DNA from: Cytophagales bacterium
GTDB taxonomy: Bacteria > Bacteroidota > Bacteroidia > Cytophagales > VRUD01
Direction of reading: 5' to 3'
NCBI GenBank assembly: GCA_019456305.1
Contig: VRUD01000035.1
Coordinates: forward strand, 1-41,050
Length of the DNA stretch: 41,050 bases
In this document: positions 22,163-24,462 of the stretch, piece after piece
Layout of the letters: each line of letters begins with the position of its first letter
Position numbering within the stretch: position 1 is the first letter of the stretch
Translations under genes and position numbers: made by a program
Notes under the pieces: model-generated
The model's database searches: none
What the model was told of the DNA's origin: nothing
The model's input: only the letters and a program-made list of their open reading frames with translations

Positions 22163-23128
22163 TTATAATTCTCCCTTCACAAACCGTTCTTTACCCTGCA
22201 TGTCTTTTTTAATAGTGATGTTTTTGAATTGATACCTTTCAAATAACAGGGCTACCTGTTTTGCAAATTGCCCGTTTGTTTCAAAATATACCTGTCCATT
22301 CGGTAGTAAAATATCCTGGCTTAGTTCCAGGATATGCTCGTAAAAAATAAGAGGATTTTCATCCTTAACAAAGAGCGCCTGATGGGGTTCAAACCCGGTT
22401 ACATTTTCATCCATGAGCCTTTTCTCTGATTCGATTACGTAAGGGGGATTGCTCACAATTAAATTAATGGGTGGTAACAACCCTGCCACCTTTTTGTAAG
22501 CGCCAATATCTGATTCTATACAATGTATTTTTACATTATTTATTCTTGCATTCTCTCCGGCTAAATTCAAAGCTTTTTTATCATTATCTAAAGCATATAC
22601 TTTAGTATGAGGAAGTTCAGCAGCTAAAGTAACTGCAATACAGCCACTGCCCGTACCTACGTCTAATAGAGAGGCCCCCCTAACAGCCCCCCTTCCGTCC
22701 CCCCAAAGGGGGGAGACTTTGCCATCCCCTTTCCCTTTGGGAAGTGTGGTGGGAAAGTCCCCCCTTTGGGGGGATTTAGGGGGGCTATTGATCACCCATT
22801 CCACCAATTCTTCTGTTTCCGGCCTGGGAATTAAAACAGATGGGTTAACTTTGAATTTTCTGCCATAGAATAATGTTTCACCGAGTATGTATTGTATTGG
22901 CTCTTTATTCTTTAATCTGGCTAAATATGTTTCCAGGGTATTCTTTAATTCGTCATTGAAACCTTCTAAACTTTTATCACTTATTATTTCAGATTTTGAA
23001 AGACGAAAAATATCCTCTAATATAATAAATGTAATGCTTTTTGATTCATTAAGATCATACACAGCATTAATATTTTTCACAATTTCTTCGAAAAGCGCCT
23101 TTGATGAGTGGATATTATTGAATTTCAT
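22163..23128 (-). CDS. prmC: Peptide chain release factor glutamine N5-methyltransferase with in-frame insertion
   Basis: 321 residues from the ATG at 23128. An ATG at 23182 would add 18 residues not typical of the family. The N-terminal helical domain carries QYILGETLFYG and VLIPRPETEELVEWVI. The methyltransferase domain has LLDVGTGSG (motif I) and SNPPYV (NPPY at about 227-230), which methylates the Gln of the GGQ motif in release factors RF1 and RF2. Between them about 38 residues (114-152; SPPKSPQRGDFPTT, then SPLWGDGRGAV) are encoded by a C-rich inverted repeat at 22675-22787. In relatives the two parts are nearly adjacent. The insertion is at a linker, so function may be kept. Confidence 0.92.
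   Translation of the reverse strand: MKFNNIHSSKALFEEIVKNINAVYDLNESKSITFIILEDIFRLSKSEIISDKSLEGFNDELKNTLETYLARLKNKEPIQYILGETLFYGRKFKVNPSVLIPRPETEELVEWVINSPPKSPQRGDFPTTLPKGKGDGKVSPLWGDGRGAVRGASLLDVGTGSGCIAVTLAAELPHTKVYALDNDKKALNLAGENARINNVKIHCIESDIGAYKKVAGLLPPINLIVSNPPYVIESEKRLMDENVTGFEPHQALFVKDENPLIFYEHILELSQDILLPNGQVYFETNGQFAKQVALLFERYQFKNITIKKDMQGKERFVKGEL
22675..22787. repeat. C-rich inverted element inside prmC
   Basis: Two inverted copies built on CCCCCCAAAGGGGGG and GACTTT, each also with a CCCCCCTAA outer part, separated by about 25 bp. The right copy reads GGAAAGTCCCCCCTTTGGGG on the plus strand. A related fragment occurs in ribD (23909-23930). The element is in frame in prmC. Confidence 0.75.
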
Positions 23129-23228
23129 ATATTTGAATTGATTATTAACATCAACATTTAACATTTTGCCCCGAGTGGCCAATTGAAGGTAGGCAATATT
23201 CGATAAAAATATTAAATATTGAATTATG

Positions 23229-23386
23229 AGTCCCCTCTAAAAAGCAAAAAATTGAAAAGAAATCATTTCTCGCAAAGACGCAAAGTTCGCAAAGAATTGA
23301 ATATCAATTAGTTAATTATATAACTTTGCGTTCTTTGCGCCTTTGCGAGAACCAAAAACACTTTTTAGAGTGGACTCAATTATGAA
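23229..23386. repeat. Imperfect long inverted repeat with CGCAAAGACGCAAAG arms
   Basis: TCTCGCAAAGACGCAAAGTT on the left (from about 23269) is mirrored on the right by AACTTTGCG...CTTTGCGAGA (about 23322-23350). The outer ends also match in inverse (AGTCCCCTCTAAAAAG and CTTTTTAGAGTGGACT). It fills the gap between divergent prmC and ribD. The same CGCAAAGACGCAAAG motif is at 40510-40524 upstream of lpxH. It looks like a small non-autonomous element. Confidence 0.7.
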
Positions 23387-23403: not shown

Positions 23404-24462
23404 ATGTATAACAAAAAAGACGAAATATACATGCTAAGAGCCCTGGAACTCGCTGAGCTTGGGAGAGGAAAAGTAAGCCCTAACCCAATGGTAGGTTGTG
23501 TGATCGTACACAACGACAAAATAATAGGCGAAGGTTGGCACCGGAATTTTGGCAGCCCACATGCCGAAGTAAATGCCATTGATTCGGTAAAAGATAAAAG
23601 CTTGCTGCCCCAGTCAACACTCTACGTCAACCTGGAACCTTGTGCCCATGTTGGAAAAACACCTCCCTGTGCTGACCTGATCATAAAAAAAAATATAAAA
23701 AAAGTGGTTATTTCTAATTTAGACCCCAACCCCCTCGTAGCAGGCAAGGGAGTTGAGAAACTTAAAACAGCAGGATGTAAGGTGCAATCCGGCATGCTTG
23801 AAGATAAGGGATACAACCTTAACAAAAGGTTTTTTACCTTTCATAATAACAAAAGGCCATTCATTATCTTAAAATGGGCAGAAACGCAGGACGGCTTTAT
23901 TGCGAGATCCCCCCTCCGTTCCCCTGAAAAGAGTGATAAATCTAAATGGATCAGCAACGAGCTTTCCCGGAAGTTGGTACATAAATGGAGAGCTGAAGAG
24001 GACGCCATAATGATCGGCACCAATACTGCAAAATATGATGATCCAGTGTTAAATACAAGACACTGGAATGGTAAAAACCCCGTACGTATCGTTATTGACA
24101 GAGAACGAAAGCTTAGCGATGATCTTAATATCTTTGATAACAAGCATCTTACTATTTGTTATAATGCAAAAATTAATGATGAGAATAAAAATTTATTTTT
24201 TATCAAAATCACTGACTGGGATGATCTGCTCGAAGAAATTCTTAAAGACCTCTATAACCGCAACATACAATCATTGTTGGTAGAAGGTGGCGGAAAGCTT
24301 TTGCAGAGCTTTATTGACAGCAACTTGTGGGATGAGATCAGGCTGTTTAAAGCAAGCAAGATATTTGGGAAAGGCATCCCCGCCCCGGTTTTTAGTGCCA
24401 GAGAGGGATCTGCAACAAGTTTGCTGGATGACCGGTTGATGATCTTTGCGCATGGCGCATAG
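23404..24462 (+). CDS. ribD: Bifunctional diaminohydroxyphosphoribosylaminopyrimidine deaminase / 5-amino-6-(5-phosphoribosylamino)uracil reductase
   Basis: 352 residues, normal length. The N-terminal deaminase has the zinc ligands H53-A-E55 (SPHAEVNAID), C80 (EPCAHVGKTPPCAD) and C89. The C-terminal reductase domain starts near residue 150 (ILKWAETQDGFIA) and includes LLVEGGGKLLQSFI. It performs the second and third steps of riboflavin synthesis. No FMN riboswitch is visible upstream, where a long inverted repeat sits instead. Residues SPLRSPEKS (about 170-178) come from a C-rich stretch related to the prmC element, at a loop variable in relatives. Confidence 0.96.
   Translation: MYNKKDEIYMLRALELAELGRGKVSPNPMVGCVIVHNDKIIGEGWHRNFGSPHAEVNAIDSVKDKSLLPQSTLYVNLEPCAHVGKTPPCADLIIKKNIKKVVISNLDPNPLVAGKGVEKLKTAGCKVQSGMLEDKGYNLNKRFFTFHNNKRPFIILKWAETQDGFIARSPLRSPEKSDKSKWISNELSRKLVHKWRAEEDAIMIGTNTAKYDDPVLNTRHWNGKNPVRIVIDRERKLSDDLNIFDNKHLTICYNAKINDENKNLFFIKITDWDDLLEEILKDLYNRNIQSLLVEGGGKLLQSFIDSNLWDEIRLFKASKIFGKGIPAPVFSAREGSATSLLDDRLMIFAHGA

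Follow-up and report, generated by a model that had tools for sequence, protein, structure and literature searches.

Element A, a C-rich palindrome of about 100 bp, interrupts the prmC gene of a Cytophagales bacterium without breaking its reading frame, and further copies lie inside the reading frames of many other genes of the same genome. We consider it highly probable that the element belongs to a mobile or formerly mobile palindromic family that sits in frame in genes throughout the genome, is translated with them, and is tolerated in loops. The reading starts from direct observations, namely the sequence of the repeats, their copy number, their in-frame position, their frame and strand bias, and their absence from the orthologues examined. 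At the DNA level, a short variable centre is flanked by two C-rich arms in inverted orientation, and this unit is often combined with a second palindrome, B, into a mosaic. The element would be transcribed and translated together with the host gene, yielding a hydrophilic peptide rich in Pro, Gly, and Lys that is probably disordered. Tolerance would follow from which copies survive: these sit within loops or separate one domain from the next, keep the frame open and free of stops, and are mainly read in the one frame with a hydrophilic product.

The PrmC insert and a shorter piece in RibD

Gene and element: the window, meaning the whole stretch of 41,050 nucleotides analysed, encodes the release-factor glutamine methyltransferase PrmC on its minus strand (positions 22163–23182), in an open reading frame of 339 residues that has Pfam and structure matches. 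The copy of element A (22673–22786, minus strand) codes for SPPKSPQRGDFPTTLPKGKGDGKVSPLWGDGRGAVRGA, 38 residues, and the reading frame of this essential enzyme gene passes unbroken through a hairpin-forming repeat. In gene orientation, the 5' arm (22754–22786, minus strand) reads AGCCCCCCTAAATCCCCCCAAAGGGGGGACTTT from 22786 down to 22754 and codes for SPPKSPQRGDF, with matches to the arm pattern at 22759–22786 and 22754–22778. In the 3' arm (22673–22714, minus strand), the junction is the variant ACGGAA and an additional outer unit of the AGCCCCCCTAAC type is present (22674–22684), and the end of the inverted arm is the outer GCCCCCC (22674–22680). A repeat search gave 85% complementarity between the inverted arms (22688–22714 and 22758–22784), and the palindrome has a computed fold of -79 kcal/mol (z = -5.0), a stability reached in none of 200 shuffles. 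At two mismatches or fewer, CCCCCCAAAGGGGG occurs four times in the window against 0.2 expected, each time within the prmC element.

Position of the insert: Pfam matches PrmC_N at residues 53–101 and MTS at 171–253. HemK/PrmC structures from E. coli and T. maritima align with the protein up to the IPRPETE helix and resume at motif I, and the insert falls between the two, after IPRPETEELVEWVI and before the motif I sequence LLDVGTGSG. Counted by hand on the translation, 49 residues separate PRPETE from D[IV]GTGSG, compared with 17–21 in nine same-order orthologues with a measurable linker. The net gain is therefore about 28–32 residues, and the comparison suggests the loss or replacement of some 6–10 native linker residues. 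The first-pass annotation had described a C-rich inverted element adding about 38 residues to PrmC at a domain junction. The element is confirmed by its sequence, inverted arms, and fold, and the in-frame addition by the continuous 339-residue frame and the short linkers of the orthologues; all examined PrmC orthologues of the same order lack the insert, and no frameshift was found. The site also holds up as a tolerated position but not as an exact domain boundary, lying instead slightly within the methyltransferase core, at its N-terminal edge.

The ribD piece: a short arm-like segment in ribD (23909–23930, plus strand) codes for about SPLRSPE. The RibD linker has 14 residues (RSPLRSPEKSDKSK) versus seven in five orthologues (e.g., RTDYDSK), making this a seven-residue insert, and its DNA matches the prmC arm CCCCCTTCCGTCCCCC at 14 of 16 positions. 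The arm score was equalled by one of 500 composition shuffles and by 9 of 5832 window 28-mers, some of which probably overlap the piece itself; so short a sequence match would be weak by itself. The suggestion that ribD holds a related shorter piece proved sound, in that linker length and arm match together mark a real insert.

Families A and B and their host genes

Copy number: in the host genome, a 4.2 Mb draft in 159 contigs, blastn with element A returned 92 scored matches, and a one-arm pattern, chosen blind to coding, returned 65 matches at 48 loci. The second palindrome, B (GCCTCCCGCAATGCTGGCCCGATGTCCACTGGACATCGTCC), occurs at 38–39 places and often takes the place of one outer A arm. 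Places with A or B number 83 together, and 77 of them fall inside open frames of at least 190 residues; a looser arm pattern run on the same genome found no separate intergenic population. Further copies had been anticipated at first pass, rightly, although that annotation treated a single insert where the genome holds about 80. The terminal arms of A begin (ACC)AGCCCCCC, and in the mosaics a hairpin CCCCCCAAAGGGGGG is combined with one of several types of centre, with the ends of A or of B, and optionally with outer 12-bp units. A search of 396 genomes of the phylum found the peptide of A only in its own genome, the peptide strings of A and B were not found in a literature search, and at the locus Rfam returned nothing beyond chance microRNA matches, well short of their gathering scores. 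A further in-frame repeat coding FTDSPIHPFTDS (units of ATTCACCGATTCACC) lies beside A or B at four loci: L102 (C17:38070), L065 (C53:7197), L096 (C46:31453), and L111 (C93:77).

Hosts: a Pfam scan assigned a family to 47 of 50 host proteins, the exceptions being L095, L077, and L044. Besides prmC, the hosts include argS, alaS, pheT, ligA, mutL, holA, xseA, atpG, secDF, murF, and uvrD; two MiaB-like genes, asnB, hemF, a transketolase-type beta subunit, phosphoglucomutase, and ApbE; and acyl-CoA dehydrogenase, ceramidase, glycosyltransferases, and SpoIIE phosphatases. Pfam matches span the insert, split around it, or flank it in AsnB, ApbE, ceramidase, UvrD, MiaB-like proteins, AlaRS, HemF, AtpG, LigA, XseA, acyl-CoA dehydrogenase, and others. 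Residue-level structure alignments place the insert after residue 201 of 3ejo in HemF, after 158 of 2owo in LigA, at 209 of 8w0t in acyl-CoA dehydrogenase, and near 135 of 3htz in AlaRS, with the host frame continuing beyond it in all four. The junctions of HemF and LigA lack about 5–6 host residues, and that of acyl-CoA dehydrogenase lacks none. Four genes, L061 (alaS), L045 (asnB), L048, and L063, hold two separate inserts. We give very little credence to an assembly artefact: a draft of 159 contigs leaves room for repeat-driven chimaeras, but the 83 places are spread over many contigs with the host gene in frame on both sides, and whole two-insert genes (alaS, asnB) stand on single contigs. 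For annotators, a peptide common to unrelated proteins of this genome marks a history of the DNA and not a shared domain.

Recurrent sites: three SpoIIE phosphatases (L058, C2:67597; L042, C9:39963; L105, C64:13501) carry inserts after SGDFYW, in the same loop. Close TPR paralogues carry different modules at an identical site, A in L050 (C32:13222) and B in L092 (C40:29651) and L093 (C40:31582); either the site was reused or one module was swapped for the other. Together with the short linkers of the PrmC and RibD orthologues, these paralogues mark the inserts as foreign to their host genes.

Frame, strand, and length of the inserts

The arms of element A are symmetric, and each strand offers two open frames. 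These are used very unequally. The frame SPPKSPQRGDF...KGKGDGK...VPPLGGFRGA, which has a hydrophilic centre, accounts for 34 copies in long open reading frames, and the second open frame for about six. No copy in a long open reading frame uses the corresponding arm frame of the other strand, where the centre is hydrophobic; the only copy that does so (C21:47951) lies in a frame of 84 residues. Equal use of the four frames would give a chi-square p of about 1e-16. End-to-end length, counted by hand, is a multiple of three in 34 of the 40 copies measured (p about 2e-11; this value, like those for frame usage and for the contrast with other species below, assumes independent copies, an approximation that duplicated hosts do not fully satisfy). 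The same count on inner hairpins was uninformative because the length of the C-run varies.

A strand and frame bias of this kind is unexpected for DNA that is silent at the protein level, and it argues that the inserts are translated with the host protein. Judged from the sequence, PrmC, AlaRS, and LigA are predicted to contain insert-coded peptides that include GDFPTTLPK, SDGK, and GDGKVSPLWGDGR. Alternatively, the hairpin could be transcribed and then cut from the mRNA or bypassed by the ribosome, leaving a protein that lacks the insert. The great stability of the prmC hairpin would suit such a route, as would insertion into many core genes, which suggests phenotypic silence; neither bypassing nor excision, however, needs the open, in-frame, frame-biased copies of 3n length that are seen, and we hold this explanation to be quite improbable.

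If translated, the peptides might also be useful to their hosts as tags, localisation signals, or interaction segments kept by selection. The single dominant peptide frame and the recurrent insertion into one loop of the SpoIIE phosphatases are what such adaptive linkers would predict. Against this, the hosts share no common pathway, copies of A and B are found at all degrees of decay, and purging of hydrophobic frames explains the frame bias equally well. A role of this kind is very unlikely in our judgement, and we infer that the inserts are neutral for their hosts.

Mobility and comparison with other palindromic elements

Target sites: the copy number of A and B suggests that they were mobile in the past. 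No target-site duplication was found beyond chance, since at least 6 bp were shared by one of 40 flank pairs against 0.96 in shuffled pairs. The only 6-bp candidate, the GATGGA flanks of the acyl-CoA dehydrogenase insert (L064, C8:15400), fits the homologue and equals the shuffled expectation. The nearest relatives compared belong to the same order, too distant for an empty site to be read at the DNA level. The apparent loss of host linker residues in PrmC, LigA, and HemF is not explained by clean insertion. The lack of target duplication argues against a miniature element moved by a DDE transposase and fits a Y1-type or recombination mechanism. A classical MITE, i.e., a terminal-inverted-repeat element derived from a DDE insertion sequence, non-autonomous and moved in trans, would share with element A its length of about 100 bp, its inverted terminal arms, and its dozens of copies. 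It would, however, be expected to have fixed ends, whereas those of A and B vary (extra 12-bp units, or B for one arm), and no insertion sequence with A-like ends was seen among the 83 places; we consider this origin unlikely.

Candidate transposases: a profile search found seven Y1_Tnp matches in the genome, and with the mosaic of palindromes and the missing target duplication they make it a real, if not the favoured, possibility that A and B are REP/BIME-like mosaics mobilised by a transposase of the IS200 type (Y1, RAYT), an enzyme that creates no such duplication. The occurrence of the same arm as a REP-like, extragenic sequence in other phyla points the same way. On the other side, A and B are absent from the borders and ends of all seven Y1_Tnp genes, the closest association being an A copy about 1.1 kb from L032, in a neighbouring gene; moreover, REPs are mostly extragenic, and A and B are not.

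The arm in other genomes: the identical C-rich arm CCCCCTAAATCCCCC..GGGGGACTTT occurs in Cyanobacteria, Poribacteria, Bacteroidota, and others. Among the matches listed, 5 of 99 usable places elsewhere lie in a long open reading frame, compared with 43 of 48 here (Fisher p 8e-26); a looser, earlier count among the matches listed gave 11 of 133 elsewhere. Random spots fall in long open reading frames at 68% in the loci of other species and 64% in this genome. The latter figure underestimates the coding share, as short genes go uncounted, so the roughly 90% for the arm indicates no avoidance of genes and does not prove targeting. Between prmC and ribD lies a third palindrome (window 23262–23356; TTCTCGCAAAGACGCAAAGTTCGCAAAG...CTTTGCGAGAA, of the TTTGCGAG type), which is unrelated to A and B and has about 25–30 copies in the genome; one of 20 tested copies lies in an open reading frame, as expected for a sequence with stops. 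One arm sequence is almost always extragenic elsewhere and mostly intragenic here, and the contrast offers a natural experiment on the acceptance of new segments by proteins and on the factors that set a small palindrome between genes or inside them.

A bolder proposal is that this lineage turned a common extragenic palindrome into an intragenic one, preferentially placed or kept in coding frames, so that many proteins share disordered peptides. Either insertion would be coupled to coding or transcribed DNA, or non-genic copies would have been removed. We regard the proposal as speculative and rather doubtful; if it is true, AlaRS, ArgRS, LigA, MutL, HolA, AtpG, and SecDF would be among dozens of proteins sharing such peptides.

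Known systems: in-frame repeat insertions within genes have been described in Rickettsia and Wolbachia and, less frequently, among the REPs of several bacteria. Rickettsia palindromic elements (RPEs; Ogata et al. 2000, reviewed in PMC2229807) are in-frame fusions within conserved protein genes that are unrelated to one another; expression is reported for the genes that carry them, as is activity of an RPE-carrying guanylate kinase (PMC2229807). In architecture, A and B resemble these palindromes of 100–150 bp in their inverted terminal arms, many copies, and stop-free, in-frame position in conserved genes. They differ in their host, a Bacteroidota-type organism of 4.2 Mb as opposed to an obligate intracellular alphaproteobacterium, in having some 90% of copies in genes, and in forming mosaics of two palindromes. 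In several bacteria, GTAG/CGTC-tagged REPs occur inside open reading frames, which often encode tRNA synthetases or proteins of replication and repair; they add 20–30 residues, sometimes twice per gene, although most REPs there are intergenic (PMC3733652). Replication and tRNA-synthetase genes, sometimes with two inserts, are likewise hosts of A and B, which by contrast lie mostly within genes. Element A lacks the GTAG/CGTC tags, and B has CGTC after the GATGTCCACTGGACATC palindrome, a candidate tag. Bacterial MITEs with open frames, such as ERIC, the 107-bp Correia element, and YPAL, are small inverted repeats fused to host open reading frames (PMC2229807). A and B share that design, terminal inverted repeats included, but lack the target duplications and TA ends of those elements. 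They are also set apart from classical REP/BIME sequences by not being extragenic and by having no RAYT at their border.

By analogy with these systems, A and B would best be read as protein-coding palindromic elements, RPE-like but of another lineage, and as neither MITEs nor classical REPs. In this Bacteroidota-type genome, about 90% of a palindrome family lies in frame in genes, core genes of replication and translation among them. Other Bacteroidota have mostly extragenic arms among the matches listed, and in-frame arms are rare (in L226, an ilvD-like gene, and L343, UbiD-like, both names being read from sequence only). The ilvD-like gene (L226; G445:C86:19498-19607) holds three to four in-frame tandem copies of the arm unit.
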